Shown here piece after piece: positions 18,154 to 48,557 of a DNA stretch of 64,000 bases (the first letter of the stretch is position 1; every line of letters begins with the position of its first letter). The translations under genes were made by a program, and so were the position numbers. The stretch spans positions 8,269,402 to 8,333,401 of the forward strand of contig NC_049985.1 in the NCBI RefSeq assembly GCF_000003815.2. The letters are read 5' to 3'. Source of the stretch: Branchiostoma floridae (Eukaryota; Chordata; Leptocardii; Amphioxiformes; Branchiostomatidae). The notes below the pieces were generated by a model that worked only from the letters and a program-made list of their open reading frames with translations, was not told the origin of the DNA and did not search any database.

Positions 18154-21100
18154 ATGTGCTGCAGTGAGGGAGGCTGTTGTGGAGGCAGCTGTAAGTACAA
18201 GGGGACCTGTATCCGCAACCTCGGCTGGGCCCTGATTGTTCTGGCCGTCATTGGCGTCATCCTGGCAGCGATAGCTGACGGGGTGTATGCAGGATACCCG
18301 TTTGCCGTTGTGCACCACATCAGTGCTCCCATATGGGGAGGAGCCTTTGTAAGTCTGCCTGCCTTTTCTTTGATGCATTAAAGCATAAAAGTAGCCTTCT
18401 TCACAAATTTCTGGAGCATTTATTATTGGGAGAACACTCATTAGGGATTTTCAACATGGCTAAAGGTTGACTCACTGCCTGGAAAGGGTGCGGCAAAACT
18501 CCCTTTCCCAGCATAGAGAACCTTACTAGTAGTTCATGTTGAAATTCGTCTACATACAATACATCTGCTCCAGATATCTATGAAGAAGGCTAGCATAAAA
18601 GTGACTGGAACTACATAAGTACGGTCACACCTCTACATAGGGAAAATCTGACCCATGTGAGCACTTTTTGATGGTCCCTTATTCGATTTTTCCCATCGAC
18701 ACAAGTTTTATTTAATTTCAAGAATTCTGTTTATAGTGACCACTTGCCCACATAGACCAGATTTTATCAGTCCCCTAAGGTCTTTTGGGGAAGTTTTGAT
18801 TGTACAGTACATGGAAATGCCTGCATATGTAACATTGCATATGCCTACATGCACCTTAACATATTCAGTATTGCTCACACAAACCCAAACTACTTATTAC
18901 CTTTGACTACAGTCATTTTTTATAATCTTCCAATTTGGACTTTAAAAAAAATTGTTTTGGTTGAATCAAATGCCACCATATACTCCTCAAGTTTCTCTAC
19001 ATTTAACTGAATGTTACTCATGATCCCATGTGTTACAGATTATAGTTGCTGGAGGATTGGCTGTCTGTGGAGGAAAGAGTCCTGAAAATGCCTGTCTGGT
19101 GAGGTGTTCCATGCTCTACTTAACTTTCTCACTGAGGAGAGTGTCAATGAAGTTTAACAGATGAACACCCTATATGCAGCCCTATGTTTGTTTTTTCAAA
19201 ATACTTATTTTTGTCAGACCCAGCCTGCAGGTTCACCTTGATTACTCTCATGAATCCACCAAATAAAATTATAATACTGCCACATGAGAAAAAATACAAT
19301 TCAAAGTTATTTAAAGGTATGTTCCAATGAAGCATCCGGTAATCCTGAGATATATAAATCTGCAGATATTTAGGTGTACATTTTTTTGGATGTGACAGTA
19401 TTATCATAATGGCAAAGGGTTGAGTCATGTGAGAGTTGATGGTACCTAGCAGTTTCAGCTGAATATTTCTTGTCCTTAAAGAATCTCAGTCAGTGCATCT
19501 TTACCCTTTTTTCAATTCATGGAAACACATAGATATTAACTGTTGTGAAAGTTTAAAGTCTAGAAATTTCTAACATGTTTTTCTTTCCCCTGTCCTCACC
19601 TTACAGAGAATATCACTTCTAGTGATGAGCATCTTTGCCATCATGTTTGCCATTGTGATTTGGATCATCGCAGCCATAGGACTAGGCGTCGATGGGACTC
19701 AGTGTGATTGGTTTGTGGAGGGACCATGTAAGGGAGACAACAATTGGGATTGGAATTGTGGTTGGTGGTCTGACTACTGGTAAGTACTTGCACTTGTTAA
19801 AAATTTCTAACATGTTTTTTCTCTCCCCAGAGGATAGCACTACTGGTGATGAGCATCATTGGCATCATGTTTGCCTTTGTGATTTGGATCATCGCAGCCA
19901 TAGGGCTAATAGCTGATGGAAACCAGTGTGAATGGTTTAAACTGGGACCTTGTGAAAGTTACGAATCTCACAATGATAACTGTGGTTGGTGGTATGATTA
20001 CTGGTAAGTACTTGCTCAGTGCTCGAAATACCCACTTGTGCACTTGCAATTGCAACCACATTTTGCTTGGCGCAACTAAATTTTAAACCCAGGTTGCACA
20101 CTGGACAACCTGAAATTTTGCAGTTGAAACACCGCTTTTCCCCCACCTACATGCATAAGCTTTACAGTAGCAAGTTGGGAAGACTATTACTGGAAGAAAA
20201 GATAATGGATAAGTAGCTAATTTGAAAAAAGTAATAACTTGGAAGTGGGCAACCTGATGGTGCAACCTGGCTTTTGACTCAGGTTGCCGCCTGGGCAGCA
20301 AGGCTGAAAAAAGTATTTTGAGCACTGCTTGTTTAGTGTCCCTTACCATTTCCTGAGTACTGTGCCGTCATGATTATCGCAAACTATTATGTTAGGTATA
20401 TAGTAAAGTGCTGCCTGGTATTTTGTATGTGTCATGTATGTGAATTGTATGTGAAGAAGTTTGTACTGATGCCTTAGCAGTGTAAATGTGGTATATGTGG
20501 CTTAACAGTTTGTGATGTTTTGTAAAGTTTGTGGATGAAAACACCAGTATCCCCCATCAAGGATGCTGACTGTTGTATTTTGGTTCTGTTCTGCAGGTAC
20601 GATCTGTATCCCAACTGGCGCGATATTGACTGTGGTGGGATAAAGGCCCTCCACGCCCTCCAGCTGCTGCTGGGACTTGCCGAGACAGTTCTGATGTTCA
20701 TCGTCAGCATCAGGACCTGCTGTGGAACCTGTAGGAACTGCTGTGAAGGCACACAGCAGCCTCCGGTATGTATGCACATGCGCACCGCAGCAGCGCGCGT
20801 GGGAGTGTTTGTGTGTGGTCTCAGTCACCACGGTTAGATTTTGATTGTTATTTTTTTTGCATTGGTTTCTACTGTGCATGCAAGTAAGTCTAGCAACACA
20901 GTGTGATTTCTAACTTATGACAATGCAAACATTCTTACTGAAAATTTTCTATCTACCAGAAGAAATTGATATCTTACTTTAGGAAAGAAGCCAACAATGA
21001 TAGGCCAGATGGCATACATTAAGGTAACCCTATCATATATATATACCTCTTCCTGTACGTTTCAGACACATGCCATCGTGTACCAGCCAGGACAGCCCTT

Positions 21101-21627
21101 ACCCCAGCAGGTGCACTCTGGTGTCATCATCATGCAGACAGGTGAGAAACCTTACTCACCAGACTGGGTCTACCCTTTAAGATGTTTTTCTGAGGTCACA
21201 AGAATGCATTGGATGCTGGAACTCTTTACCTTCAACACATACATTCCTCATTATTCCTTTTTGTTCTTCTGTAATGTGTGATACACTACATACATCAATT
21301 CTCTTCTTTGTCCCCATAGCGCCCGGTGGCCAGCCATATGCAGTACAGCAGCCAGCCTACAACCCACAAGCACAACCTGGGTCGTACCCAATGCAACCGC
21401 AGGCTGGGCCGTACCCAACACAACCCCAGCCTGGGTCGTACCCAACCCAACCCCAGCCTGGGTCGTACCCAACCCAACCCCAGCCTGGGACTTATCCAGC
21501 TCAACCCCAGGCTGGGGCATACCCTGGAACCCAACCTGGTCCTTACCCAGCCCAACCTGGGTCGTACCCCACGCAGGCAGGGCCCCAACCACCACCTTAT
21601 AACACGGTTACTGATCAGAAGATTTAA
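18154..21627 (+). CDS. MS4A/CD20-like four-helix protein, gene 2, with duplicated exon 3
   Basis: Exons: 18154-18348, 19039-19098, then 19607-19779 or 19831-20003, then 20597-20765, 21066-21141 and 21320-21627. The joined frame gives 326 residues with either exon-3 copy. A Cys-rich cytosolic N-terminus (residues 2-19) precedes helix 1 (about 24-42). SAPIWGGAF and then VAGGLAVCGG form the CD20-like helix-2 signature. Helix 3 and the Trp/Cys-rich extracellular loop sit in the alternative exon. Helix 4 (about 160-182) is followed by a Cys cluster (RTCCGTCRNCCEG), a likely palmitoylation zone. The tail has about eight YPTQPQPGS-type repeats and ends in PPPY. The ATG follows a CC after an acceptor, an arrangement conserved in genes 3 and 4. 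A cell-surface role is inferred from family; the function is unknown. Confidence 0.88.
19607..19779 (+). CDS. Gene 2 exon 3a (helix 3 + second extracellular loop)
   Basis: 173 nt, phase 0 in and phase 2 out. It encodes helix 3 (about SLLVMSIFAIMFAIVIWIIA) and a loop with QCDWF and NCGWWSDYW. It aligns codon for codon with exon 3b, which has the same length and ends. Confidence 0.88.
19831..20003 (+). CDS. Gene 2 exon 3b (alternative copy of exon 3)
   Basis: 173 nt, same phases as 3a, with a near-identical helix 3 but a different loop (KLGPCESYESHNDN in place of VEGPCKGDNNWDWN). Only 51 nt (19780-19830) separate 3a from 3b, and joining both would break the frame. Confidence 0.85.
21370..21590 (+). 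repeat. Coding 27-bp minisatellite in gene 2 tail
   Basis: Tandem 27-nt units encode Y-P-T-Q-P-Q-P-G-(S/P/T/A), about eight copies with variants. The repeat is in frame, so copy-number change alters only tail length. Confidence 0.85.
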
Positions 21628-24646: not shown

Positions 24647-27166
24647 ATGTGCTGCAGTGAAGAAGGCTGCTGTGGGAACTGTAAGTACGAGGGGACCTGT
24701 ATCCGCAACCTCGGCTGGGCCCTGGTTGTTCTGGGCGTCATTGGCGCCATCCTGGCAGTGATTGCTGATGGGGTGTACCCGTTTGCTGTTGTCCACTTCA
24801 TCAGCGCTCCCATATGGGGAGGAGTCTTTGTAAGTTTTTGACTATCTTTTCTTTACTGCATAGGAAGTAGTAGCCTTCTTCACAGACTTGTTGGTTACAT
24901 AAAAGCGAACGTTGATTTAAACACATTCCGTACAATATTCCATTAAAATCTACATAATATAATACAATGAATATACACACCATACGTAGACGACATAAGC
25001 TAATGATCGTGTAACATAGTGAGTACTGATTAGGGTTATATAGAGAACTGTCCCCAAGAGAGGTCCAGGCTTTGGTTTCAAATGACGACAGAGAAGGAGC
25101 TATGTGTATGAGTATGTGCGCCAGGTGGAAAGGAATTCCACAGTTGCATGGCTCTGTGGAATTGATATATATCATTGTTCAACACAAGCCCAAACCACTT
25201 ACCTTCCACTCAGTCATTTTACAACCTTTACATTTGTACCTTTGGTTGAAGCAAATGCCACCATATTTTCCTTAGAGTTTCTCTACTACTGTAGTATTGT
25301 TACCAGTAAATAAACTGTTACTAATGGTTCCATGTGATGTTTTACAGATTATAGTAGCTGGAGGCTTGGCTGTCTGTGGAGGGAACAGTCCTGAAAATGC
25401 CTGTCTGGTGAGATGTTCCATGTTCTACTTACCTTTCTCATTTAGGAGAGAGTTGGTGGCGTTGATTGATAGAACAAGCTATCCAACTGAAGTCCTAGAA
25501 AGGTGCTAGAGCTGTGCATATATTAAGAGTCGGGGGAGGGGGTGTTCTGTTCTTGAAAAGAAATTTATAACATCTTTCCCCCTTTCACCTAACAGAGGAT
25601 AGCCCTACTGGTGATGAGCATCTTTGGCATCAACTTTGCCTTTGTGATTTGGATCGTCGCCATCATAGGACTAACCGTCGATGGACCCAACTGTGAATGG
25701 TTTGTGATGGAACTACGTATCAGAAATAACACTTATGGTTACGGTCATAACTGCGTTTGGTGGCCTGATTACTGGCGAGTGATAAGTAATTAATGAGTAA
25801 AAATGAGTATACTCATCATTACTCAATTACTTATTACTGTCACATCGTAATTATTGCAAAATAATTGACTGTTTAATATTCCCACTCCCCCAAAAAAAGT
25901 GGCAGAAACATCAAGAATGTTGACGATTTGACTGTTGTAGTTGGTTATGTAGCGATAGAAACGTCTTGTCATAACGTTATATCATCAAAACATGTAAAGA
26001 TGTTTGCGCACTGGGTTGGTCACACTTTAGGTCCAATGATTCTTGTTGATTCTGTAACTGTGGACCACGTGTTGCAGGTCCATTCTCGATCCCAACTGGC
26101 GCAGTGTTGACTGTGGTGGGATATATGCACTCCATGGCCTCCAGCTGCTGCTGGGACTGACCGAGACAGTTCTGATGTTCATAGTCAGCATCAGGGCCTG
26201 CTGTGGAACCTGTTGTAAGAACTGCTGTGACGGCACACAACAGCCTCCGGTAGGCAGCGTCTCTCGCCCTCTCTCTGTCTCTGTCTCTCTTTCTGTCTCT
26301 CCCTCTCCCTCTCTCCCCCCTCTCTCTCGCTCCCCTCTCTCTCTGTGCTTGTATGTGTTTGGATTTTGTGTGGGTCTGTGTGTGCGAGTGTCTGTCGTGT
26401 TTCTGTGTGCACGTGTATGTGTGTGTAGGGCAGATGGCATACATTAACTTCACTCCCTTCAGTATATATATATGTTACCTTCTTCTTGTACATTTCAGAC
26501 ACATGCCCACGTTTACCAGCCAGGGCAACCCTTACCACAACAGGGGTACTCTGGGGACATCCTCGTGCAGACAGGTGAGGCACCTTACTCAAGATAACCC
26601 CGGGGCTACTCCTAAATGTATTTTTCTGCGGCCACAATACTATCAAGTTTGTTGCTGTGTATTTTATAGTGTAATGTATGATTATAGTATTCACCAGAAT
26701 TGCCCTGATATTATTAAAGTTGATTTTCATCCGGGCATGATCCTTTGATTACTGCAAAAAAAACACAAGTAACGATGAGCACTGAATGTATTGCATGCAA
26801 CTGTTCGACCTCGACACATACAGTCATGGTCACTTTTCATATTTCTATAATGTTTTCCTGTGCAGTATATATAGTACATAAAAATAATAATATGATACGA
26901 GTGCATCATTTTTCTCTTCTTTGTCTCCTTTAGTGCCTGGTGCTCCTCCTGGCCAGCCGTATGCAGGACAGCAGCCAGGCTACAACCCACAAGCACAACC
27001 TGGGCCGTACCCAACCCAGCCCCAGCCTGGGTCGTACCCAACACAACCCCAGCCTGGGGCGTACCCAACACAACCCCAGCCTGGGGCGTACCCAACACAA
27101 GGGATGCCCCAACCCACTGTGTCAGAACCTCCACCTTATAACATGGGTGCAGAGCAGAAGATTTGA
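24647..27166 (+). CDS. MS4A/CD20-like four-helix protein, gene 3
   Basis: Six exons: 24647-24829, 25348-25407, 25596-25774, 26078-26249, 26499-26574, 26934-27166; 300 residues. The architecture equals gene 2: a Cys-rich start (MCCSEEGCCGNC), helix 1, SAPIWGGVF plus helix 2, helix 3 with a Trp-rich loop, helix 4 with LQLLLGLTETVLMF, then a Cys cluster. The tail has about four YPTQPQPGA units and ends in PPPY. Exon 3 must end at a GC donor (tg|gcgagt). The usual GT choice nearby gives the wrong phase and a stop codon in exon 4. Only one exon-3 copy is present. An in-frame upstream ATG at 24596 lies before the conserved acceptor and is probably intronic. Confidence 0.85.
26256..26345. repeat. 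CT-rich microsatellite in gene 3 intron 4
   Basis: (ct)n/(tctg)n tract immediately after the exon 4 donor; the equivalent intron of gene 4 carries a TG/CT tract. Confidence 0.85.
27000..27105 (+). repeat. Coding 27-bp minisatellite in gene 3 tail
   Basis: Four in-frame units of YPTQPQPG(S/A); the shorter counterpart of the array in gene 2. Confidence 0.85.
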
Positions 27167-29177: not shown

Positions 29178-30609
29178 ATGTGCTGCAGTGAGTTCGGCAG
29201 TTGTGGAGGCAGCTATAAGTACAACCTCGGCTGGGCCCTGATTGTTCTGGGCGTCGTTGGCTTCATCCTGGCAGTGATAGCTGATGGGGTGTATGCAGGA
29301 TACCCATTTGCTGGTGTCCATCACATCAGCGCTCCCATATGGGGAGGTATCTTTGTAAGTATGACTGCCTTTTCTTTGCTACAGAAAGAGTGACTGAAAC
29401 TACGTGGAACGTTACGGTCAAATCTGTACAAGTAGCCATCTCTACATACATGAACAAATTCTGACCAATGGGACCGTTATACATGTATATATTTCCCATT
29501 GACACAATCATTGACAATCGTGTCTATAGCGACCACCTGTCCACATAGGCAAGAATCTATGGGTCTCATGAGACAGGGCAGGCTTACATGCCTACATATT
29601 GCATATGCCTGCATGCTGCCATGCAAATATGCACATGTACAGTTGCATGTATATTACTGGTGATCCCATGTGATGTTTTACAGATTATAGTTGCTGGAGG
29701 CTTGGCTGTCCGTGGAGAGAAGAGTCCTGATAATGCCTGTCTGGTGAGGTGTTCCATGTTCTACTTAACTCTCTTACAAAATTTAACAGATATAGATAAA
29801 GTTTGAGCACGAATTTTTAGGCTGTTTTATCTAAATTACTAGATGCATACAGCAGTAGCAGTTTTACCTGAATGTTTCTTCCCTTCATAATGTTGTCTAG
29901 TGTATCTAGTGAAAGTTTAAAGTCTTTGAATTTCTGACATTTTTTCGTTCCCCCCACCACCACCCCTCCCACCATGCAGAGCATAGCACTACTGGTGATG
30001 AGCATCTTTGGCATCATCGCTGCCTTTGGGATTTTCGTGATCGCAGCCGCGGGACAAGGCATCGATGGAATCCGGTGTGACCAGTTTGTGTCGGGACCAT
30101 GTGATCGTGACGGAGGCACCCCTCACGAGATTGACGGCCAGATTATTTACACCCACCGCTGTAGTGATTATTGGTCTGATAACTGGTAAGTGGAAAGGAT
30201 GTTGACAACTTGATTGTTGCAGTTTGGTTATGTAACGAATCTAACAAAAGAAACTTTCTTTCAGACATTATCAAAACATGTAAAGACGTATGCACATTGG
30301 GGTAGGTACACTTTACTTCCAATGATACATGTTGACACTATAACTCTTCTGTTTTGCAGGTACGATCTGTTTCCCGACTGGCGCAGTGTTAATTGTTGGG
30401 GAGTCAGGATCCTCCACATCCTCCAGATCCTGCTGGGACTTGCCGAGACAGTTCTGATGTTCATCGTCAGCGTCAGGACCTGCCGCGGAGCATGTAGGAA
30501 CTGCTGTGACGGCACACAACAACCTCCGGTAGGCAGTGTGTGTCTGTGTGTGCGTGTGTGCGGGTGTGTCTGTCTGTGTGTGTGCGTATTTGTGTGTGTG
30601 TGTGTGTGT

Positions 30610-30669
<60 letters not shown>

Positions 30670-30686
30670 GTCTGTGTGTGTGCGTA

Positions 30687-30730
<44 letters not shown>

Positions 30731-32105
30731 TGTGTTTGTGTGTGTACATGTATGCACATGCGCACGTGGAAGTGTTTGTGTGTGGTGAGATTGTGGAGAC
30801 ACGGGCTTGGCTCAGTTGCCATGGTTGGATTTCAAATGCTATTTTTGCTTCTGGTTGTTTCTTGACAATGTACAAATAATTAATGCATACAAGTAAGGCC
30901 AGCAACACAGTGTGATTTCTAACTTTGTTGAAAAACGTTTTACTGAGATGCAAAAATATTTCACTGTCTGTCTATCAGAAGAAAGTGACATTTCGCTTCA
31001 GGAAATAAGCTAAAAGCAATGCTATTGCAGACGGCTTACGTTCACTCTGTATGTACTCTCCAAGCAGAGGTCGANNNNNNNNNNNNNNNNNNNNNNNNNN
31101 NNNNNNNNNNNNNNNNNNNNNNNNNNNNNNNNNNNNNNNNNNNNNNNNNNNNNNNNNNNNNNNNNNNNNNNNNNCCTGTACTTTTTTCGACTACTAGTAT
31201 ATCTCCGCGACTCGACCTCTGCTTGGAGAGTATCTGTATGTACCTTGTGCGTTTCAGACACATGCCATCGTTTACCAGCCGCCTGGAGAGCGCCTAGCCC
31301 AACAGGTGCATTATGGGGAAATCATCGTGCAGACAGGTGAGACATCTTAAGGTACCCTCTCGCTGCCCTTGCGTCAAGCTTGCGTCACTGTGGGGTTAGA
31401 GAGATACTCAACGAATTTCAGAGAACAAAGAACGCATTTTCTTACTGTTTGTGTATTTTGTCGTCTTCTAAGTCATACTTTTATGTATTACGTAATATCT
31501 AAATTATAAAAAAATCGGAGAAAACCACAAAACAGTGACACAGTGAACGAACCTTGCAGTGACGCAAGCTTGACGCAAGTGCAGCGAGATCTTACTCACA
31601 AAACAAGACCTTTTAATTTTTTTCTTCAGTCACAATAATTTCAAGTAGTTTGTAGCTGTGTATGTTATGTTGTATCGTTTTTTTTTTGCTAGGTACGATT
31701 TTGCAGCATAATTGCACTAGTAGTCGTAGATCATTGAATTTGATTTTCATTTGTTATCAAGCATGATCCTGTGATTTCTGGAGAAAACACAATAACACAC
31801 TAAAGTTGAGCGCAGAATGCATTGAGACTCTTCACCTTTAACACATACATGTTCCTCATCATCAGTTTTCATACTTCCGTTTTCCTAAGTAGTAAGGTAT
31901 ATATATATATACATATATATGTAGTACATATATAATACATATAACGTTACATCAGTTCTCTTTGTTATCTCTTGTAGCGCCTGGTGGCCAGCCCTATGCA
32001 GGACAGCAGCGAGCCCAACCCGGTCCGTACCCCACACTGGCGGTGCCCCCACCCCCTGTATCAGAACCTCCACCTTATAACATGACTGATGATCAGAAGA
32101 TTTGA
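29178..32105 (+). CDS. MS4A/CD20-like four-helix protein, gene 4
   Basis: Six exons: 29178-29354, 29684-29743, 29980-30185, 30360-30528, 31258-31336, 31978-32105; 272 residues, stop TGA. It shares the start MCCSE, helix 1, SAPIWGGIF and VAGGLAVRG of helix 2, and [11 protein letters not shown] of helix 4 with genes 2 and 3. Exon 3 is 206 nt, the longest second extracellular loop of genes 1-4. The tail has lost the YPTQPQPG array and retains only a short PGPYP stretch before SEPPPYN and DQKI. Intron 4 contains a large TG/CT microsatellite, a MITE and the assembly gap, so this intron's length is uncertain; the exons are intact. Confidence 0.85.
30535..30750. repeat. TG/CT microsatellite in gene 4 intron 4
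   Basis: About 210 bases of (tg)n with an internal (ct)n run at 30686-30712. It generates long spurious ORFs on both strands. Confidence 0.95.
31054..31232. mobile_element. Palindromic MITE containing the assembly gap
   Basis: Left end tactctccaagcagaggtcga; the right end is its inverse. The 8-base sequence tctgtatg flanks both sides (31046-31053 and 31233-31240), a clear target duplication. The middle 100 bases are N. An 8-bp duplication fits hAT-like elements. Confidence 0.85.
31075..31174. other. Assembly gap (100 N)
   Basis: Exactly 100 ambiguous bases, the usual placeholder for a gap of unknown size. It sits at the centre of a palindromic element. Confidence 0.99.
31358..31589. mobile_element. 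Short TIR element in gene 4 intron 5
   Basis: 33-base terminal arms (31358-31390 and 31557-31589) are inverse copies with one mismatch; the core is gcgtcaagcttgcgtcactg. The interior is AT-rich without an ORF. The arm itself contains a small palindrome, aagctt. Confidence 0.8.
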
Positions 32106-36351: not shown

Positions 36352-37656
36352 ATGGTGAAGAAGACGGAGCTGTACCAGCCCGTGGGCTGGCTGTTGACCG
36401 TGCTGGGGCTGGTGACAGTCGGTCTGGGGGCGGGAGGAGACCGAGTAGGTCTGACTACAGCCACCGTCTGTGTGTGTACCGGACTGGGGGTAAGTGTGCC
36501 GACATTTCAACCCAGGATTCAGGGGTTAAAAATCCGTACTTCCTACACCTGTGCATGTTCTTGCCACCAAGTACAATAAGGACATGCTGACTAGATAGCT
36601 TTTAACAACGCTTGCAGCTAGATGTACAAACGTCAGGCGTGACAGGTGGCTCAGTCTGATATAACCAACTGCTGCCATGCTTCGTGCAGGCGAAGCTGGT
36701 ATGTCACGCCGGAGGACGGTTACTACTATATGAGCCATACAGGGACAGATAAATGATAACTTGATTACTAGCACTCCACAATACATATTGTACAAACGTA
36801 TATGGCAACGTGTACAACGGAGGAAACTAATCTACTTCACAAAAGACTATATAGTGTAGGATGGAATCATATACATGTACTTCGTATTTTTTGTGGAACT
36901 TCTAATGTCCAGGTACTTTTACGGTACCGCCTTACATTCGCAACCAAGGGATTATGGTATTTCTATATATACTAGTACCTTAATTTGCTCTGTTGCTAGT
37001 ATTGAAGATCACAGATAATGCATAACGCATGGTATTTGAAACATTCAAATCAAAAGTCATATTTCGCTTCTATTCCAATTAACAAACCCTTCCATCAGCA
37101 GGATTTCGGAATAAAATCTTTCAGATCAAACTTTTATTTTCCTGTAATCACAAATACAGGTCGCTGTCGCTGGTATTGTTGGTATCATCTGTGGTCGGAA
37201 GTCTGAAGAAGGCCAGCTGGTGAGTACATTTCCATATACCAGCCTCCCCTAGCTATAGTCATCAGCCTCGGTGGTCCCGAATAGCCATGATGCCGTATAT
37301 TTGTGTCAGGTCTAGAGACTTGACGATCGACGAGCTTTGACCGTATATGTTGATCACTGACAACTCTAAAATTTGCGCGATGATCTAAAGGTGTGTATAT
37401 GATTTGATGATTGCTGCAGACCTGTATAGAAATGGGTCGCTTTGTCTTTCTCGACAGAATGTTTGGACCGTGGGTCTGACCTTGTCTGCGACGCTCCTGT
37501 CGGTCACGGCCTTGGTGCTGAACCTACAGCCACTGGTGTGTGCCGACCCTCCGGACTGGACGGGCGACGTTACAGGCTACCATCAGGGGTACGACGGAGC
37601 CATACGCGATGTCGCCCATGAAGCCAAGTACCAACACGGTCTGTCCACCTGTTACC
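36352..37656 (+). CDS. MS4A-like head of the composite gene (helices 1-3)
   Basis: Exon 1 (138 nt, 46 codons) has GWLLTVLGLVTVGLG, alignable with GWTLIVLGSLSVILG of gene 1. Exon 2 is exactly 60 nt and reads GIVGIICGRKSEEGQL, against GIVGVFSGKSPTNKGL in gene 1. Exon 3 starts NVWTVGLTLSATLLS and ends helix 3 before a Cys-containing loop. Phases 0 and 0 match genes 1-4. Read without splicing, exon 3 meets a TAG at 37740-37742. Confidence 0.75.
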
Positions 37657-40600
37657 GTACTTGTACCGTACAATATGCGTTTGACAGACCATGTCGTGTA
37701 CCGTTTGTGATAAATTTCGATTATTCTATGGATGGTGGTTAGACATCCTGATAATGAGATACTCCATGCAAAAACTACACAAGCAACTGGGTACGTTTTG
37801 TAAACGGTCAGACGTTTCAGGCAGCATTCACTGTCTTTCGTCAGTGACTGAACACAATCTGAAGTCAAACAGGAATTGAACCCAAAGTATGAACTGATAT
37901 GTGAAAACAGTTGTAAGAGGGATCGATTGAAGACGAAATTTTGGTTGTTGATTCTTTTATGACAGGAGAACCCAATCCTTCAGCGCCCAAGTACGGCCTT
38001 GCCTGTGAACATCAGACCCTGACTGCAACCTGCCCAGCTGGCCAGGTCATCCGCATCGTGTCGGCCCTGTACGGCAGAACCCAGCCCGAAGCCGTCTGTG
38101 GCGGTGCAGTGTACACCACCCAGTGCCGCAGTACAACCAGTCTGACGGTGGTACAGGATCGCTGTAACGGCCAGCAATCGTGCTCGGTTACAGCAAGCAA
38201 CAGCGAGTTCGGAGATCCATGCGTTGGCACATTCAAGTACCTGGAGATCGAATACGAATGTACTTTTACCGAAAGTGAGTACTAGTCACCATTTCTTCTC
38301 AATGGTGCAACATGAGTTCATTCTTTTTAGGATTTAGTAAATGATACAAATGTACTTGTCTTTCGTAGCCACAAACGGTGTGTACATTTCATACAGTACG
38401 ATTTACGTGGCTGTAATTAATCGTTTAAGGTACCTTCGCTCTTAAAATATTCAGTCTTTTGTATTCCAAACCAAGTCAGATGCTGAAGCTAAACGGGACT
38501 CTTAAAATGGGAAGCAAACTTTGCATCCCAAGGGTCGATCCGTGGTTTCTCTTTCATTGATAGATTATCCTGCTTCCAACGATATTTCTTTATCAGATGA
38601 ATATAAAATGGGCATTCAGTTGTAATATTGTCACTGACATTGTTCGGTTCTATTTTCAGGTCTTCGCGGCCCTAACCTGGCCCAAGGGAGACCAACACAG
38701 CAATCAAGCGTGGCGCACGACGGCGTGCCTGCTCGGGCGGTGGACGGCGTCTTGGACGGCGTGTACAGCGGGGATTCCTGTACCCACACCCAGCTAACCG
38801 ACAACCCGTGGTGGCGGGTGGACCTGGGCAGCTCACGCAGCATCGGCGATGTCGTCATCTTCAACCGACAGGACTGCTGCTCGGAAAGGCTGAATCCCTT
38901 CCAGGTTCACGTGGGAATTTCTCCTGATGACGTGGGCTCCAACCCGACCTGTGGCGGGGACCACACGGTGCCGGCGGGACAGGCAGCCGTCACCGTGGAC
39001 TGCCGTGGTCACACGGGCCGGTATGTGGGGATCATGCTACCGACCAGGCAGTACCTCACTCTTTGTGAAGTCCAGGTGTATGAAGGTATGGATGTTAATT
39101 TGATTGCCCAAAGATATCTGAAGAACCTACAATGTGAAGAATGTCAATAAATGTCCATTGCACTTTGTTTCTCGCCTTTTGGTGATCAACATTTCATAGG
39201 ATAAAATCAAATTTTGTATCAGTTCTAGTCGCTGACGGCCCACTGCTGACGGCCTATATATTTTTGTGGGTACAATCAGATCTGAGCAATCACTTTAAAA
39301 CCCATATTCTAGCAATCCTTGCTTGATTTTCATGGAATTTTTCGGTCTCAACATATCGCCAGACATTAATGTTGCGGATGCCCTTCCTCAGATGTACAGG
39401 TAGAGCGCCTGGGGTGCTGGGCGGACACCGCTGACAGGGCCATCCCTACGGTGGAGGGATCGGACCCGAGGCTGGACGGACCTTACCAGTCACGCCAGCG
39501 GGCCTTCCAGAAGTGCAAGGCTGTGGCGCAGAGTCAGAACTTCAGTATCTTCGCCCTTCAGGTGTGTCTGAAGGAGCTCAAGTGCGCTGATTTTATTGGA
39601 ATAATCATAATTCTACGTTTACATACGCCAAAAAGCGGTTACTCAAGCAACTGAATATGATTTTGGAAACGGTCAGACGTTTCAGATAGCATCCACTGTC
39701 TTTCACCAGTGACACTGAAGAGATCTGCAAGAGATTGGTTTTCAGTGTCTTCAGCTCTTTTGTATTCATAGTTAGGGTATAAAAACAGTTTCTTCCAGAT
39801 CTCTTCAGTGTCACTTACAAAATCATATCCAGTTGCTTGAGAAACTTATTACCTGGATGTCTAAATTTCATCGACGAAAGTTTACACGATTCTTTACTTA
39901 CCCCATGATCCATGTGTTCCCTTTGTCTGTATCCTCGTGTTTTAAATTCAGTACTCAACGTGATGCTTTTATTCCCGTGTAGAATGGAGGTTGGTGTGCG
40001 TCCTCTGCAGGGGCTGGGGGCACCTACAGGATGTATGGGCCTTCGGGAGACTGTCGAGCTGACGGCAGAGGCGGTCCTTGGGCAAACGAGGTCTACAAGA
40101 TAATTCGACGTGAGTTCTACTTTATATGTATATGCCTCAAGAATCAAAGTGTTTGATTTGAATTGGACGGCCATGTAACTGATTTCATTGAACCATACCT
40201 GAAGTTATGTACAGGCTTTTCATTTGACGTCATCTGCGCTATGTTGGATTACAGCGTACGTCAGTAAACCACGCGAAGATGCTACTGCTTAATTCAATTA
40301 CACGCCAACATGGTCGTCGGAGGATTCAAATTATGATTAGTATGACGTCCTATTCTATCCCCTCTGATCGCATCCAATCCGGTTTAATACTCCGCTCTTT
40401 CAGACGACTTTTAAAGCCTAGTAGGCAACCTCGCCGACCAACTTCCAACCACAGATAACCTTGCTCACGACTAACTTCCAATTATGGCCTGGAGAAGGAC
40501 GGTAGGCCATGGTAGGCTATGTGTACGTGTGAAAGGGGCTGCAGGCCGTAGCCAAGCTTCTACATGTGTTTGAAAACCGACCGCGTGTTTCTTGTATGTA

Positions 40601-43600
40601 GGTGGAAGCTTGCAGAACGAGCTGGTGTGTGAGCACCAGACGGTGTCCCTGCAGTGTCCTGACGGGCAGCAGATCCGCGTGGTGAGCGCCTCTTACGGCC
40701 GGACCGACGAGACCGTGTGCGGCGGGCCCGTCCACACCACCCGCTGTAGTAGCAGAACCAGTCTAACGGTGATGAAGAAAGTGTGCGACAACCGACAGTC
40801 GTGTGTCGTTTCTGCGGAAAACAGCGTGTTCGGAGATCCGTGCGTCGGGACATTCAAGTATCTGGAAGTAGCGTATGCGTGCAACCCAGCACCAGGTATT
40901 AAATAGCACAGATGTACTCGTGTGATGTTGAACCATGCAATTCATAGACTAACTGTAGTTAAACCTGGCATCGATTAGAAAAAAATTGTATAGTGATGTT
41001 CATGTTTACCTCCTTGAAAACGGAAGCATCCTCAGCTTCCGATTGCTTGAACGTTTGTTTGTCTTGGTGTGCGTGCAAGTTTGTTCCCGTTGGCCCTGGT
41101 TGAAGATGTATGTAGTAAGATGTAAGGCGGAAGTGGTGTAAGTTAATTGGAGACTTTCAGGATGAGAAGATTGGTCCGGGTCCAATGTTGTGCAGTAGGC
41201 CTGGCCTGGCTCCAAAGTCCCACAGCAAAATGGCACAAACGGAATTAGCGATAAAATCACAATAAATGCTGAAACAAGACATTTACAAAAACTGTATTTC
41301 ACGGAGGTATGAGACCTTTGATTTCTGGTTGTGATTGTGTTTTCCCCAGAGCCCCCACCGCCCGTCACACCGCGCTACCTTGGCTGCTATGAGGACCATC
41401 CTGAGAGGGTTTTCCCCTCAGACCGCATGGATTCTGATGGCATGACTTCAGACTTGTGCATCCGACACTGTCGGGAATACGGACATCAATATGCGGGTAC
41501 GTTAGGGATTATCACACACTTGTTATATTTCTATGTACAGTTTTAACAACATCAAATCCATTTCTGCGAATAACACGCCCGGTGTCTTCTTGGCCATCTT
41601 TTCCCTTTTCTTGTAACGTATTTCTACACTGAACGCAGTAGCTATTCTTAACAGAATCCACCACGAAAAGATATAAACTAAAAGTACCTCCTTTGTTTAG
41701 CCACCCAGTACGCCCATGAGTGCTGGTGCGGCTCCCAGGGCGATTTTGTCGGGATTGGAGTGCGCCGGCCGGACTCGGAATGCGATCTCCCATGTCCAGG
41801 ACGTTCCATGTCAGACGAGATGTGCGGAGGGACCTGGAGAATGTCCGTCTACAGGACCGGCCGCGCAGAAGGTAGGATAGTAACTCTTCCCCTGTCCCTG
41901 GTGCTGAAAACACCTTCCCTGACCTTAAAACACTTTCCCTGTCCTTAAAAACACTTTCTCTTTCCATTAAAACACATTTCCTGTCCCTCAAGACACCTTC
42001 CCTGTCCCCTGGTGCTGAAAACACTTTCCTTGTCCCTGAAAACAGTTTTCCCTGCCATTAAAACACTTTTCCTGTCCCCTAAAGACACTACCCCTGTCCC
42101 CTGGTGCTGAAAACACGTTCCCTGACCCTTAAAACACTTTCCCTGTCACTGGTGCTGAAAACACTTTCCCTGACCATTCAAACACTTTTCCTGTCCCTCA
42201 AAACACTTTTTTTGTCCCTCAAAACACTTTCCCTGTCCATGAAAACACTTTCCCTGTCCTTGGTACTGAAAATCTTTCCCCGACCCTTTTAACACTTTCC
42301 CTGTCCCTTAAAACACTTTCCTTGCCTGTGAAAACACTTTCCCTGGTTCTGAAGTCACTTTCCCTGTCCCTGGTATTGCAAATACTTTCCCTGTCCCTGT
42401 ACTTATAGATTCGGGTGTGGTGACCACGAGACCTATGTCATACACCAGGCCATTTGTGAGCAACTACAATTTCACAGTGTCATACCTTTACCATTCGATA
42501 TATTAAGAATTGTTTAGTGTTAGAAAATGTGCCTTTTGCCACATCTCTATCTGCTAGCCCCGTCACACCCGTTGCCGATTGAGACTACCCATAGTCAGCT
42601 ACAGCGGCTCGGTTGTTGGACTGACACTATCGACCGCGCCGTACCCACCCTGGAGGGCTCCGACCCCCGCCTGGACGGACGGTACGAATCACGCACTGAC
42701 GCCGTCAGGAAGTGTCGCGATGCCGCCGCTAGACGGGGATACACCGTGTTTGCCATTCAGGTGGGTCTTCATGTACATTTTGTACATGTATTAACTGTAA
42801 AGCTGCAGGGGGCATAAGTTGGACGGACGCCTCCGTTGAAACAAGTGCTTTTAAAAAAGCTGGCATTTTGCCAATGTTTGCGTGTGTGAACGTTTTTTTC
42901 TAGTTATTAGAATGTCATATAAATAGAACAGAGTAACTAAACCTGATATTGGCGCATGGAGAGATTCACATATGTGCCTGAATCTAGATCTAGACGCCAC
43001 CTGTTAAAATTTGCGTGAACTGCAGCAAATTTCACTACACTGCCTGTTTTTGAGTGAGCTCTGTTGCGGGGCATTTTTAATTTTTTTTTTTTTAATTTTT
43101 ATTTCTATTCGGCAAAAAAACGAAGCGGCGAATCCGTTAACCAAAGAAATAAATTGGTGTGGCCAAATGGATGTAAAAATTAGTATTTTAATGGATGTAA
43201 AAAAGAAGAAAAAAAATCTACCTCCCCGGATTCGAACCGAGTGCATTGGTTTAGAATGCGTAAACTTTAACCACTGCGCCAGTGCGAACATGTTGGAAAA
43301 ATGCCTGTTTTAACAGGTTTAGAAATGTTTGGCATGGATTGAACAGGTCCGTTCATCTCAACATCACTCCATCACAACGGCGACTATTCTGGCCTCAGAG
43401 CATTTTGCCGCTAAGGCGGCAAAATGCAAAAAACTGTTCTTCGTTTTCTAACGTGTGACTAAAGAATGGGTCCAACAGTAGTCCTTTTGCGCTAGAGTTT
43501 GGACATCCGTACTCAATTTTTGTTTCACATAATAATAATAATTGTGCATTGCTATCTGTCGTTCTTAGAAATAATTATACTGTGTATCTTTTACAGAATG

Positions 43601-46600
43601 GGGGATGGTGTGCTGCGTCGGCCAACGCACTGCAAACCTACCATAGGTACGGCCGGTCGGACGCTTGCCGGGCCGATGGTGAGGGAGGCCCCTGGGCAAA
43701 CGAAGTCTACAAGATTGTAACAGGTAAGTTTGTTTTTCAAATGGTTTGAGATTTTACGTGTTTTGTACAAGTTATCTGTTAAAGACAATACATCACTTTT
43801 GACAATATATCATAATGTCATCATGGAGAAATTAAACTTCGCCGACTCAAGAAATTCGGACTCGCCGGAATTTCAGACCTCTTCAGTTACCTGACCCAAC
43901 TGCTCTGGATGGGAGACTTAAAGCACGTGTAACGTCAGCAATGGGTCAAACGTTGTTGGAAGTCAATACCCCCCCATCTCAGTAAGATAAAGAGAACATT
44001 ACAATCCGTGTCCGTGTGTCATCTAGCGACCAATAACACCAATAGCTTTAAAAAGCTGCTGTCATTTCTTATATTTAACAAAACGCCTCTTTCCGTCACA
44101 CCAATTGCAACCTTGTCCTTCAGGCCCTCAACTGCAGCCAGGCTTGGTGTGCGAACACTCCACCATGTCCATACAGTGTCCTGCTCACAAGGTCATCCGT
44201 ATCCAGTCGGCCATGTACGGCCGCGCGCCCGGCGGGTCAGTCTGCGGTACTGTCTACACCGGAGCGCCGTGCAGGAGCCCCACCAGCCTCCCGGTCCTGC
44301 AGGAGCGGTGTGACGGCAGGGAGGCCTGCTCGGTACAGGCCGAAAATGGCGTCTTTGGCGATCCGTGTGTCGGAACGTTCAAGTATCTGGCAGTGGAAAA
44401 TGAGTGCGTCGGCGTTTCAGGTTAGTACGACATTTTCTATTCCAAACGTTTAACAAAGGTGGCCCCAAATTCGCCATCTCTTTCTCTAAATCATGATGTT
44501 TTGAAGGTGAATTGAACCAAGAGATATCGTTCTTAACTATCTTCTGTAAGTTTTATATGCATGTAACGTTATGAAACGCCATCTGTCTACTGGGTCTTGT
44601 CCAACCAAATGTATTGCACCGGCTTCCATGTCTCAAATGGTTTCATTGGTACCTATGTAAAGGCGTTAATTCGTTTCAACTATAAATACACTCCGTGCCA
44701 TTGTAAATGGTACAAGTCTAGTGGATACTACCCGAAACGTCTGACTGTTCCCAAAATCATATCCAATTGCCTGAGCCACTGGCCCACTGCTATTGAACAT
44801 GACTAAATCTATACATACTGGTTAGGGAAGAAAACTATTATATGCATGTTGGAATGTTCAAATTACGAACATGACTGACCTGCCGTCTACATGTCCAGGC
44901 TACAAGGGCTGTTACGAGGACACGGAGTCCCGCAGGTTTCCGGCGGACTTCATGTCGTCTGAAGAGATGACGTCAGAGATGTGTGTACGTCACTGCAAGG
45001 GTAACGGTCATGCTTACGCTGGTGAGTCATCATGTCATATATCATATCTTCGGATTCATATCTTAAACATCAAGACAAACTTCTCTCTGACACGATCACA
45101 AAACGTTGAACTTGCGCCATGACTTGTTACCACTGTAAAGACCCAGTCACATCACCGTACGATCGTTAAAACCTGTAAGGGCATTCTTCTTGGAAAAGTC
45201 GTATGTGTCCTACAAAATCCAGCTGTCAGAAAGCACTGTGTTAGGTCCCTGTCGACGATTGTTTCTGTCAGGACCTGCTTGAAAATTCTACGGCATCAAA
45301 GTCGTATGACAAGATATCGTTGTCATGCGGTATAAACGTATCACATGTGACCGTTTTCTCCAGCTACTCAGTACTCCCGTGAGTGCTGGTGCGGATCGGA
45401 ACATCACTTCGACGGTCTCGGCAGCCGCCGCCCGGAGACGGAATGCGACAAGCCGTGCCCGGGTAATGCGGACCAGTGGTGCGGGGGGACGTGGAGGATG
45501 TCCGTGTACAGTGTTCAGGATCGCAACGGTAAGAATCGAGCTCAACATAGGCTTTAGCTTATTTTGGACATCTTTAAGGCCAGGGTACTGACTTACTTTT
45601 AGACAGTTTTGTTGGCCTTTCTATTATGTAAAGTTTAATGTCTTCATGATAAAGGCAACTCTTTTTTGGCCGGACCTTTTTTTTTATTCGCAGGCTCGCA
45701 TCAGTTTTGGGGTTCCCAGAGGATGTCATCCATATAATCAAATCAACATGGCCTTACGCAAAATTTGCGTAAGACAATATTAGAAAGACACTGACGAAAC
45801 ACCTTAAAAGATGTCCAAAACAAGCTGAAGCCTACCCTCTGCTTGAAGAGTAATGATCCAGTAAATCTTATCAGATGATGTCTATGTAAATGACATCTAC
45901 CTTGCTACAGTTGTCGGGTATATGTAGTTTCTATCTTTTAAATTTATGAATATCTACAGGAGTCTCTTTATTTGACGGAAGGACAAAACAAATCTTTATG
46001 TTCTAACAGTTTGTGAGGCTCCCAGCACAGACACCCAGTACCGGTACCGCTGGGACCTGCCCCGATTGACAGAAGACCGCTTCACGTTTGATGTTCAGGC
46101 CAACAATGACGTCCATGTGGGTTTGTCATCGCAGAGCCAGGACCTGGACGACATGTATGAAATTGTCATTGGTGGCTGGTCCAACACACAGTCTGTCATA
46201 CGGAGGAGCAAGCAGGGCAACAACCTTGTGACGGTCTCGACATCCGGTCAGTTCTGATACTTTGTAGTAACATTGTTCTTATTTCACCCGTGAGAACAGC
46301 GTTCTTGTTTTTGGTCTGTTTGTTTATTTGTCGTGGTGTGTGTGCAAGTTTCTTTCCACTGGCAGGGGTCCAAGTTTTTTCCAGGGCTGAGTTGTAAATT
46401 GAGACTGTCAGGATGCAAAGATTGAGCTGGCCTGCATCTAAATTTCTTTTGCAGACTGGCAGGAGGCACACGGCCAAAAGTGAGGAACCCAGGGATGGCA
46501 TGTGTCAAAGAGTGGAGCAGAATGAGTCAAATGGACATGGTTGTTATATTTTGTAATTACTTGACTCTACTATGAATGTTCCCACCATTAACTACTAAGA

Positions 46601-48324
46601 ATTGGTGTTCAGCACCAAGGACAGGTGTGTATACCTGTGTGTGTGTGTGTAAACACCCAAAATATTGCATTCATGTATGGGATCTCTAATTTCTTGTCTT
46701 ATTTCTGTCTTTGTCCACAGGCATTATCTCCCCAACAGAGTACAGAAAGTTCTGGATCACCTGGTCTTCAGACGGAACCATTGCTGTTGGGAAGGGTGGC
46801 GACACTCAGCCGTTCATGCAGTGGACAGACCCCGACCCTCTGCCCATCGCCTATGCCGGATACACCACTGGGTGGGGGAGTACTGGACGATGGAAGTTCT
46901 GCCACACTGCTCAGCTTGCAGGTATGTTTGAACACTTAAGATTAACAAGGTGACTGAGAGATGATTCTGATGTAATTGGTTGGCACATACTTGTGTGATT
47001 GTGGGAATATGGGGTAAAGGTTTCATTTACCCATTTTAAGGTGGTCATATTATTCCTGTTCAGTTATTAGCTGTGGTAGTGGTACAATTGTTTTAGCCTG
47101 GTGCCATCTCAAAAAGTTTACCAGGACATTTTGTGACAGAGTGAGCATGCAAGCCCCAGTAAACTAAATAGTTTGACACTTCATGTCCTTTCAACACACT
47201 GCATACTATAAAAGGTATTACTCATCTACATGTTGTACCTTGAGAAGGTCTTATTTTGAAGATTTGTAAAAATCCACTGATAGCCCTTATAACATGTTAT
47301 AGTCTTATTATGAAAGGCAGATCTGTTGTATTTCCAATACACAGAGACTGGGATGCAATCTGCTGTGGAAGCCCCTCGGCAGAGGTCCAGCTGTACACCT
47401 TGCAGACACATCGTTTTCTACGTCAAGATCTCCACCTCCATCATGGTCGCCCTGTCTCTCCTGGCGTGCCTTCTGGCATGTTGGGGATATCGACGGAGCA
47501 GCAGTAAGGTTAGACTGAATTTACATTTCTACACAGAGTAAGTGTGAAAACTAAGTGCTAACCCTTTCAACCACTGCATCTGAAACATTTTATGCAAAAC
47601 TTTTGCAGTCGCATCATTTTCTGCCTCTCCCATTATCAAGATATGTTGAATTTGATAGTTTCAAAGGGTGATAAATGATTGTTTCTATTTTTTCAGAAGT
47701 CGGGAGTGGTCAACAGAAATCTGGTGAAGCTGCCACCTGATATATTCTCTATATCCACCACCCCACTCCCAGGTAAGTCTTGTGCTGTAGTTCGCTTTTG
47801 CTGTTACATTTTCGAGCAAATGTTTGAGAGACGACTAGATTGGGTATCATAAGGACCCAAGTACAGTTGACATGTCAGAGCCATGGCATTACGATGTATT
47901 TTTTTACAATCGCAAAATTCAAACTTATCACCTCAGAAACAGTTTCTTTGTTTAGTTTTCTTTTGGTTCTGAGTGTATGTGTGTAGTTATTTGAATATTG
48001 TAGAGTGACAGTATGTGAGGGAGAAAGAGGTTAAACTGGAGACTAGCAGGATGAAAAGGTTGCCTTGGCCTGGATCCAAAGTTGGTCCCGTAGGCTGCCA
48101 GAAAAATGCACACTATTTACGACAGAATTAGCAGGAAATTCACAATAACAAATAAAGTTTACAAAAAAAAAAGTATGAGGTATGAGATCTTTGATTTCTT
48201 ATTTTCCATGTCACACACAGGTCCCACCCATGGTATGGCACCTGTGGGTCCGGCCATGCCAGATGATCCACCGCCACCATATTCACAGGACACCCTTCCC
48301 CACCAGGCCACCACTGACGCCTAG
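36352..48324 (+). CDS. Composite gene: MS4A-like helices with a lectin mosaic in extracellular loop 2
   Basis: Proposed exons: 36352-36489, 37160-37219, 37458 to about 37656, 37966-38274, 38660-39085, 39392-39561, 39983-40109, 40602-40895, 41350-41496, 41701-41871, 42558-42760, 43597-43723, 44124-44420, 44899-45021, 45364-45528, 46010-46246, 46721-46921, 47345-47508, 47697-47772, 48221-48324. The frame is open throughout, about 1,245 residues. Order: three MS4A-like helices, SUEL, fucolectin-type, GCW module, SUEL, WSC, GCW, SUEL, WSC, FAMeT, helix 4, PPPY tail. The exon-3 donor is uncertain: 37656 gives an Arg at the join, 37638 is an alternative, and 37662 creates a stop. The lectin part is secure. 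Its attachment to the MS4A-like head is inferred from shared exon phases, the 60-nt and 76-nt exons, and the absence of a visible signal-peptide exon. Alternative: a truncated MS4A-like gene (stop at 37740) next to a separate lectin gene. Confidence 0.6.
37966..38274 (+). CDS. SUEL-type lectin domain 1
   Basis: A single 309-nt exon, phase 1-1. It shows the galactose-binding (SUEL/rhamnose-binding) lectin hallmarks: ACEHQTL, CPAGQVI, ALYGRT, a central CNGQQSC and FGDPCVGTFKYLEIEYEC. The family binds rhamnose or galactose; specificity cannot be read here. Confidence 0.92.
38660..39085 (+). CDS. Fucolectin-type (FTP / F5/8C-like) domain
   Basis: A single 426-nt exon, phase 1-1, 142 residues. 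It begins NLAQGRPTQQSS, continues AVDG and CTHTQ, then PWWRVDLG, VVIFNRQDCC, and ends GRYVGIMLP with YLTLCEVQVYE. These are typical of the eel-fucolectin/tachylectin-4/pentraxin-1 type module. Fucose binding is a family property; the key contact residues were not verified. Confidence 0.88.
39392..40109 (+). CDS. GCW module 1 (two exons)
   Basis: Exons 39392-39561 (phase 1-0) and 39983-40109 (127 nt, phase 0-1). Conserved features: RLGCWADT, RAIPTVEGSDPRLDG, a central KC and FALQ, then NGGWCASSA, CRADG and GGPWANEVYKI. I recognise the pattern as recurrent in invertebrate mosaic proteins but cannot give it an established domain name. Confidence 0.75.
40602..40895 (+). CDS. SUEL-type lectin domain 2
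   Basis: A 294-nt exon, phase 1-1: VCEHQTVSLQC, SASYGRTDETVCGG, CDNRQSC and FGDPCVGTFKYLEVAYAC. Confidence 0.92.
41350..41871 (+). CDS. WSC domain 1 (two exons)
   Basis: Exons 41350-41496 and 41701-41871, all phase 1. YLGCYED, LCIRHC and YA, then ECWCGSQ and CDLPCPG with CGGTWRMSVYR are WSC hallmarks (a Cys-rich, carbohydrate-associated module). A Pro-rich EPPPPVTP linker precedes it. Confidence 0.9.
41880..42410. repeat. Degenerate ~23-bp tandem repeat in an intron
   Basis: About twenty variants of 'aaaacactttccctgtccct', interspersed with 'tggtgctga'. It fills most of the intron between WSC 1 and GCW 2. Confidence 0.85.
42558..43723 (+). CDS. GCW module 2 (two exons)
   Basis: Exons 42558-42760 and 43597-43723; the latter is 127 nt, as in module 1. 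Same landmarks: RLGCWTDT, RAVPTLEGSDPRLDG, VFAIQ, NGGWCAASA, CRADG, GGPWANEVYKI. Same phase-0 split between FAIQ and NGGWC. Confidence 0.78.
43085..43290 (-). repeat. tRNA-like SINE copy
   Basis: On the minus strand an A-box-like tggcgcagtgg and a perfect B box ggttcgaatcc enclose a 5-bp anticodon-like stem, followed by a T-rich stretch and 'ttggccacaccaattta'. The acceptor ends do not pair, so this is not a functional tRNA. Parts of the same body recur at 54680-54720, 54864-54905, 57027-57110 and 57330-57422. Confidence 0.6.
44124..44420 (+). CDS. SUEL-type lectin domain 3
   Basis: A 297-nt exon, phase 1-1: VCEHSTMSIQC, SAMYGRAPGGSVCGT, CDGREAC, FGDPCVGTFKYLAVENEC. Confidence 0.92.
44899..45528 (+). 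CDS. WSC domain 2 (two exons)
   Basis: Exons 44899-45021 and 45364-45528, phase 1 throughout: YKGCYEDT, MCVRHC, YA, then ECWCGSE, CDKPCPG, WCGGTWRMSVYS. The two exons split the fold at the same place as in WSC 1. Confidence 0.9.
45548..45852. mobile_element. Decayed MITE of the CTCCAAGCAG family in an intron
   Basis: taggctttagcttattttgg at 45548 is the near-inverse of the stretch ending at 45834. The right end, cctctgcttgaagagta, matches the family terminus. The left terminus is lost, and the element begins only 20 bases after the WSC 2 exon donor. Confidence 0.65.
46010..46921 (+). CDS. FAMeT-type domain (two exons)
   Basis: Exons 46010-46246 and 46721-46921, phase 1. YRYRWDLPRLTE, FDVQANNDVHVGLS, YEIVIGGWSNTQSVIRR, FWITWSSDGTIAVGKGG and GYTTGWGSTGRWKFC match the 'farnesoic acid O-methyltransferase' domain. 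Despite the name this module is usually a non-enzymatic extracellular domain in animal mosaics, so no methyltransferase activity is claimed. Confidence 0.9.
47345..48324 (+). CDS. Helix 4 and PPPY tail of the composite gene
   Basis: Exon 47345-47508 encodes the helix STSIMVALSLLACLLACWGY followed by RRSSSK, a basic stop-transfer. Exon 47697-47772 is 76 nt with phase 0 in and phase 1 out, identical in size and phases to exon 5 of genes 2 and 3. Exon 48221-48324 ends DDPPPPYSQD... and stop TAG. The layout equals the last three exons of the MS4A-like genes. Confidence 0.85.
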
Positions 48325-48551
48325 TCCTGTCCTACGGTGACTTCAAAGGTGGATCAATATTTTGGAGCTGATAGAATCTTCAGAAATTTTTATGTCATTT
48401 GTAATGCAAGATTTGTTTATTCGGACATAGTGTGAATAAGATTTTCTTACTCATAAATAAGTAACAGATGCATGAAAAACATAACTTTTCTTTTTTGTAT
48501 AATGAATTGATATAATGAATATAATGCTATTGGTAAAACTTGTGCTGGTAA

Positions 48552-48557
48552 AATAAA
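48552..48557 (+). terminator. Poly(A) signal AATAAA, composite gene
   Basis: A canonical hexamer 228 bases after the stop codon. Confidence 0.5.

Follow-up and report, generated by a model that had tools for sequence, protein, structure and literature searches.

MS4A molecules have been described as small proteins of four helices that act as partners of other receptors (PMC9290968, PMC11663944), with both ends inside the cell and two outer loops (PMC11663944). The usual loop length is printed in the latter paper as "1046 amino acids", which is read here as 10-46 with a lost dash. Invertebrates are reported to lack MS4A-like genes (PMC2826416). The DNA analysed here (the window) is a stretch of 64,000 nucleotides (nt) of Branchiostoma floridae (GCF_000003815.2, contig NC_049985.1, positions 8,269,402 to 8,333,401 of the forward strand), and all positions below refer to the window. 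Positions 36352-48324, termed the lectin gene hereafter, probably form one gene encoding a CD20/MS4A-like membrane protein with four helices, the second outer loop of which holds 14 lectin-type exons, with the splice that joins the loop to the front exons predicted from the letters of the DNA.

Exon structure and lectin modules

The three front exons, the 14 module exons, the transmembrane exon, the 76-nt exon and the tail all join in one open frame (Table 1), and the predicted protein, with exon 3 ending at 37638, comprises 1,239 residues with four hydrophobic segments. No assembly gap lies inside 36352-48324, as the sole run of N in the window is located at 31075-31174. The exons, the open frame, the domains and the neighbouring CD20-like genes are features observed directly, whereas the splice between exon 3 and the exon of the first SUEL domain is predicted, and with it the single chain. 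Four CD20-like genes (A-D) stand in tandem on the plus strand at 11955-32105, directly upstream, and the lectin gene starts approximately 4.2 kb downstream of gene D on the same strand. The three front exons, beginning at 36352, most likely belong to a fifth CD20-like gene. Overall, the gene model is well supported, with the splice into the first SUEL domain (SUEL1) as its predicted step.

The 14 module exons listed in a preliminary description of this DNA are borne out, with domain E-values far beyond chance and a single open frame. They encode three SUEL domains, an F5/8 type C domain, two WSC domains, two WSC-like modules and one Methyltransf_FA domain, and every module from 37966 to 46921 is of class 1-1 in net phase and hence symmetric. 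SUEL1 and SUEL2 were scored by Pfam, whereas tblastn queries with the first copies revealed SUEL3, WSC2 and the second WSC-like module, which are identical to those copies at 56 of 95 (SUEL3 with SUEL1), 57 of 92 (WSC2 with WSC1) and 61 of 96 residues (the two WSC-like modules). The WSC-like module ("LGCW...NGGWC") bears a weak likeness to WSC (PF01822, 0.0016, below the cut-off). A search of the window for a second copy of the lectin gene (tblastn, E <= 0.01) returns none, all matches being repeats internal to the gene itself. The intron after the first WSC domain contains a minisatellite with ccctgtcc...aaaacactttc units (41882-42399).

SUEL1 and SUEL2 align with solved L-rhamnose-binding lectins (5h4s and CSL3), and 5h4s is the closest solved chain for SUEL1. 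The sugar contacts of CSL3 are Glu7, Tyr27, Asn74, Asp79, Gly83 and Lys86 (PMC3269628); judged by motif position, all six are kept in all three SUEL domains. Rhamnose binding by latrophilin-1 is reduced or lost when the equivalent residue Glu42 or Lys120 is altered (PMC2430599). A search for solved-structure relatives of the WSC-like and Methyltransf_FA modules yielded no credible match, with best E-values of 0.82 and 0.08, respectively.

Complementary halves and membrane topology

The two halves of the locus complement each other: the front has three helices and lacks a fourth helix, a tail and a nearby poly(A) signal, and the lectin half has a last helix, a tail and a poly(A) signal. No hydropathy peak follows helix 3 in the open frame up to 37737. 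Neither AATAAA nor ATTAAA occurs between 37743 and 39145, approximately 1.4 kb after the TAG at 37740, with 15 such signals listed in 32001-49000. The absence of a poly(A) signal there speaks against the chief alternative, namely that the locus consists of two genes: a fifth CD20-like copy that is truncated or decaying (36352-37742, with TAG 37740 as its stop) and, behind it, a single-pass type I lectin receptor whose signal-peptide exon or exons were missed. Two genes are possible but rather unlikely. Exons 1 and 2 retain good donors and an open frame, which speaks against two genes, whereas a run of class 1-1 modules followed by one transmembrane helix is the usual layout of type I mosaic proteins, which speaks for them.

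A separate receptor of this kind would need a signal peptide. A single-exon scan of 31000-37966 for an ATG, a hydrophobic stretch and a phase-1 donor yields no forward and one reverse candidate at strict settings, and the same type of scan of 32106-37966 with donor score >= 0 and hydropathy >= 1.8 yields no forward and four reverse candidates. Eight control scans at the latter settings give 0, 1, 2, 5, 2, 1, 5 and 1 candidates. The statement of the preliminary description that no signal-peptide exon precedes the lectins between 37219 and 37966 thus holds at the stricter single-exon settings, and the lack of such an exon between gene D and SUEL1 argues against two genes, by a scan whose sensitivity on known cases is unmeasured. 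Looser scans of 32106-37966 return four forward versus seven reverse candidates (donor >= -1) and one versus four (hydropathy >= 1.5), and the four forward candidates at the loosest donor setting, not individually inspected, leave some room for a separate receptor. Additionally, the scans cover single-exon forms and would miss a signal peptide split over two exons, as is found in SHL, a marine lectin gene (PMC3269628).

In another arrangement, exon 1 by itself (MVKKTELYQPVGWLLTVLGLVTVGLGAGG) would be the signal peptide, and a phase-1 donor inside it would be spliced straight to 37966 to give a type I lectin receptor. Exon 1 looks signal-peptide-like by eye and contains a phase-1 GT at 36448; however, its phase-1 donors score -0.4, -0.48, -1.26 and -8.65, exons 1 and 2 have better regular donors, and exons 2-3 would be left unused, which makes this arrangement very improbable.

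In the single-gene model, the span from helix 3 to helix 4 amounts to 1,056 residues with 59 cysteines when exon 3 ends at 37638, which fits an extracellular loop best. The positive charges (KK at the start, GRK between helices 2 and 3, and RRSSSKK after the last helix) fit a protein with both ends inside. The topology proposed earlier, with the helix 3-4 loop outside, is in agreement with the charge pattern of the four hydrophobic segments, which are joined by the predicted splice. The wording that the loop had been replaced is better changed to inserted, as 36 loop residues precede the lectins and 21 follow them with the 37638 end.

The junction between exon 3 and the first lectin exon

The reading frame confirms the phase-1 donor that had been called for, as one base of the first codon in SUEL1 has to come from the exon spliced to it. 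Donors were scored with a table counted from 37 donors of the window, which themselves have leave-one-out scores of -0.59 to 9.19. Among the nine phase-1 GTs from 37500 to the TAG at 37740, the highest scores are obtained for 37737 (1.34), 37638 (0.59) and 37734 (-0.59), and the other six lie between -3.99 and -8.89. The lengths of exons 1 and 2 (138 and 60 nt), their phases (0,0) and the start of exon 3 at 37458 agree with the preliminary description, whereas its 199-nt end of exon 3 at 37656 does not stand. This donor (ACC/GTACTT, with the slash marking the exon end) is rejected because its score of -4.99 is under all 37 comparison donors; 47% of the GTs in the window score at least as high.

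Better phase-1 ends of exon 3 are present at 37638 (181 nt) and 37737 (280 nt). With training on genes A-D and the lectin exons, and with exons 1-3 left out, the codon bias climbs to 21.9 bits at the codon ending at 37655, is 19.6 at 37638 and is down to 9.3 at 37737. The 37638 end is preferred because its donor score is better than that of 37656 and the codon bias is still high there (19.6 versus 9.3 at 37737), and 37737 is the second choice. The TAG at 37740 falls within the 37737 donor GTTAGA, and the transmembrane exon uses the same hexamer.

Two observations at this junction weigh against a single gene. The exon 3 donor is weak at either end, in that one of the 37 accepted donors scores at or below 37638 and four of the 37 at or below 37737, and the end with the better donor (37737) is the end with the worse codon bias. 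The weak donors, together with the drop in codon bias ahead of the TAG, are what two separate genes would also produce, and the passage from exon 3 to the lectin exons is the softest point of the single-gene model. No mini-exon (a good acceptor and donor, phase 0 or 2 in, phase 1 out) is found in 37660-37950. The dispersed repeat between exon 3 and SUEL1 also occurs in the intron at 39.6 kb, as expected if this stretch is intronic. Repeats common to both introns flanking the lectin block, a possible trace of insertion, were sought, with nothing better than E 0.6. The exon 2 acceptor has the fewest pyrimidines of the 19 acceptors listed (7 of 15).

Relation of the two ends to CD20

Genes A-D have a common layout with a 60-nt second coding exon, introns 1 and 2 in phase 0 and a PPxY tail. 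The 60-nt second exon with phases 0,0 is present in all five genes (A-D and the lectin gene), and the GW.L.VL core of exon 1 is likewise common to them. In hhalign, the A-D profile matches the joined protein over 56 columns of helices 1-2 (32% identity, E 4.4e-4), with a probability of only 33%. The A-D hidden Markov model (HMM) gives a weak match to the front exons alone (37737 end), at 11.5 bits, and only one of 300 block shuffles is as good.

Several comparisons do not favour CD20 descent of the entire four-helix part. Pfam gives no CD20 match for the front exons or for the joined protein without lectins, and the best match of the front is BCLP (E 0.0065, below the cut-off). Against the A-D HMM, the transmembrane exon and tail reach -6.4 bits, a score equalled or exceeded by 286 of 300 block shuffles; for the entire joined protein minus its lectins the score is -1.2 bits, which 73 of 300 block and 102 of 300 full shuffles equal or exceed. 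Moreover, the loop intron is in phase 1 in the lectin gene versus phase 2 in B-D, and is absent in A. The dissimilarity of the transmembrane exon and tail to A-D would also be expected of two genes.

The 3' exons nevertheless match the layout of genes B-D: a transmembrane exon ending in phase 0, a 76-nt 0-1 exon, a phase-1 tail exon and PPxY near the end. A chance match appears unlikely, although the feature set is small and was picked by eye. As the back half has no sequence similarity to A-D, CD20 descent of the 3' end rests on the exon layout and PPPY. The earlier assignment of the three last exons as MS4A-like exons 4-6 is accordingly upheld in length, phase and PPPY, but not in sequence similarity to A-D. 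This 3' layout with PPPY, as in CD20-like genes, is also difficult to reconcile with two genes.

The differing loop intron phase and the dissimilar transmembrane exon and tail may alternatively indicate one gene in which the front was joined to a type I lectin receptor that already existed, so that the last helix and PPPY tail are not CD20-derived and the protein has four helices rather than a CD20-like fold with an insert. This origin is improbable, since the 76-nt 0-1 exon and PPPY tail copy those of genes B-D, and fast-evolving tails easily lose similarity. The shuffling of lectin exons into a CD20-like loop, as first proposed, consequently stands in part: the upstream genes A-D, the weak front match and the complementary halves agree with it, whereas the 37656 donor, the 3' sequence and the loop intron phase do not.

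CD20-like neighbours and other features of the window

The exon chains of genes A-D were read by eye from the DNA, and B and C were scored in Pfam without their tail ends. Their penultimate exon, phase 0 to 1, measures 67 nt in A, 76 in B, 76 in C and 79 in D. Against the PDB, the A-D profile places CD20 chains on top, but weakly (best E 0.17; four of the seven listed sequences are CD20). Gene A lies above the Pfam CD20 cut-off within a tandem array, so the conclusion on invertebrates in PMC2826416 is worth revisiting. How old MS4A-like genes are outside jawed vertebrates is disputed, and a tandem array with one member above the CD20 cut-off bears on this question.

Gene B contains two head-to-tail helix 3/outer-loop exons (19607-19779 and 19831-20003), both of 173 nt (0-2) and 51 nt apart. 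The frame would be lost if both were included, and they therefore resemble mutually exclusive exons, by which a CD20-like protein would exchange its outer loop. Exon 3 of gene C (25596-25774) has an apparent GC donor (TG/gcgagt) where B and D have gtaagt. The 100-N gap (31075-31174) in intron 4 of gene D lies between the arms of an inverted repeat, actctccaagcagaggtcga at 31055-31074 and its reverse complement at 31212-31231. Elsewhere in the window, a G+C-rich repeat (52508-53165) has several frames open on both strands, and a search for tRNA genes found 0.

Table 1. Positions of the lectin gene exons, an intronic repeat and the CD20-like neighbours in the window
Feature	Position	Strand	Remarks
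Exon 1: ATG, helix 1, start of helix 2	36352..36489	+	138 nt, phase 0-0; donor GGG/GTAAGT
Exon 2: rest of helix 2, inner loop GRKSEEGQL	37160..37219	+	60 nt, 0-0; donor CTG/GTGAGT
Exon 3: helix 3, outer-loop start	37458..37638	+	181 nt, 0-1; alternative ends 37737 or (unlikely) 37656
Dispersed repeat copy	37776..37848	+	intron between exon 3 and SUEL1; 85% identical over 74 bases to 39640-39713
SUEL lectin domain 1 exon	37966..38274	+	1-1; PF02140 E=1.9e-23
F5/8 type C (discoidin/NedA-like) exon	38660..39085	+	1-1; PF22633 E=1.5e-21, PF00754 2.6e-9
WSC-like module 1	39392..40109	+	exons 39392-39561, 39983-40109; PF01822 E=0.0016, below cut-off
SUEL lectin domain 2 exon	40602..40895	+	1-1; PF02140 E=6.2e-25
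WSC domain 1	41350..41871	+	exons 41350-41496, 41701-41871; PF01822 E=3.8e-20
WSC-like module 2	42558..43723	+	exons 42558-42760, 43597-43723; tblastn with module 1, E 1.4e-20, 8.9e-21
SUEL lectin domain 3 exon	44124..44420	+	1-1; tblastn with SUEL1 E=1.6e-33
WSC domain 2	44899..45528	+	exons 44899-45021, 45364-45528; tblastn with WSC1
Farnesoic-acid-methyltransferase-like domain (Methyltransf_FA)	46010..46921	+	exons 46010-46246, 46721-46921; PF12248 E=6.3e-46
Last transmembrane helix exon	47345..47508	+	phase 1-0; hydropathy 2.13 over ISTSIMVALSLLACLLACW, then RRSSSKK
76-nt cytoplasmic exon	47697..47772	+	phase 0-1; length and phase as exon 5 of genes B, C
Tail exon: PPPPY and stop	48221..48324	+	AATAAA at 48552, after the final stop
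CD20-like gene A	11955..14878	+	5 coding exons; PF04103 E=7.4e-9, 36.3 bits versus cut-off 27.9 (above)
CD20-like gene B	18154..21627	+	6 coding exons and second exon 3 copy; PF04103 E=4.4e-6, 27.3 bits (just below cut-off)
CD20-like gene C	24647..27166	+	6 coding exons; CD20 E=0.015, behind Amastin 0.0083, both below cut-off; tblastn to B, D
CD20-like gene D	29178..32105	+	6 coding exons, assembly gap in intron 4; CD20 E=2e-4, below cut-off

Proposed function

In the product of a single gene, helices 1-3 would put the loop outside the cell, where the three SUEL domains with intact sugar sites, together with the WSC and F5/8 modules, would bind sugars of the rhamnose or galactose type, on microbes or on other cells. 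The CD20-like bundle would oligomerise and thereby cluster the receptor in membrane patches. PPPPY-type motifs are bound by WW domains, and the tail would recruit WW-domain (Nedd4-type) ubiquitin ligases, leading to uptake or signalling. We infer that the product is a sugar receptor clustered via its CD20-like helices. Such a protein would allow ligand binding by an MS4A-like receptor to be tested directly, and would illustrate how symmetric exons can be shuffled into a multi-pass protein.

Provided that the introns on the two sides of the lectin block are both in phase 1, skipping of the whole block would leave a plain four-helix protein in frame. The cassette may thus be optional, with one promoter giving a lectin/CD20-like receptor from transcripts that include the block and a plain four-helix protein from those that omit it, although this is speculative and on balance doubtful. 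An optional cassette would mean that one gene and one chain hold the pairing of MS4A and lectin that mammals build from two proteins (MS4A4A and Dectin-1), and would provide a natural gene-fusion argument for an ancient pairing of CD20-like bundles with sugar receptors.

Comparison with known systems

The lectin gene resembles the MS4A/CD20 family (PF04103) in three helices in the same order, in its place in a tandem array and in a 60-nt second exon like that of its CD20-like neighbours, but differs by a second outer loop of approximately 1,056 residues with 59 cysteines. In PKD1 and PKD1L2, the lectins are located at the N end, whereas in the lectin gene they lie between helices 3 and 4. The PKD1/REJ-type and PKD1L2 receptors likewise carry SUEL or WSC domains on large membrane proteins, but have another membrane part, with cation channel domains in some members (PMC1934368). 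Latrophilin, PKD1-like and EVA-1 proteins are named in PMC2430599 and PMC3269628, and latrophilins and EVA-1/C21orf63 also bear a SUEL/RBL domain on membrane receptors; however, these are 7-helix or single-pass proteins (PMC2430599, PMC3269628) with the RBL in an extracellular segment outside the helix bundle.

A SUEL/RBL domain or lectin block in a CD20-like loop was not found among the papers listed on SUEL/WSC architectures, amphioxus domain shuffling, and CD20-like proteins with lectins, as represented mostly by titles and the starts of abstracts, nor was such a layout found in the available parts of the amphioxus and MS4A literature (PMC7776563, PMC3819264). The nearest functional counterpart is mammalian MS4A4A-Dectin-1, in which a tetraspan MS4A and a sugar-binding receptor act together in lipid rafts (PMC9290968, PMC11663944). 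These are two separate proteins and the lectin is of the C-type, whereas the lectin gene has one predicted chain with SUEL/WSC domains. By analogy, the lectin gene may represent a one-chain form of the MS4A4A-Dectin-1 partnership.

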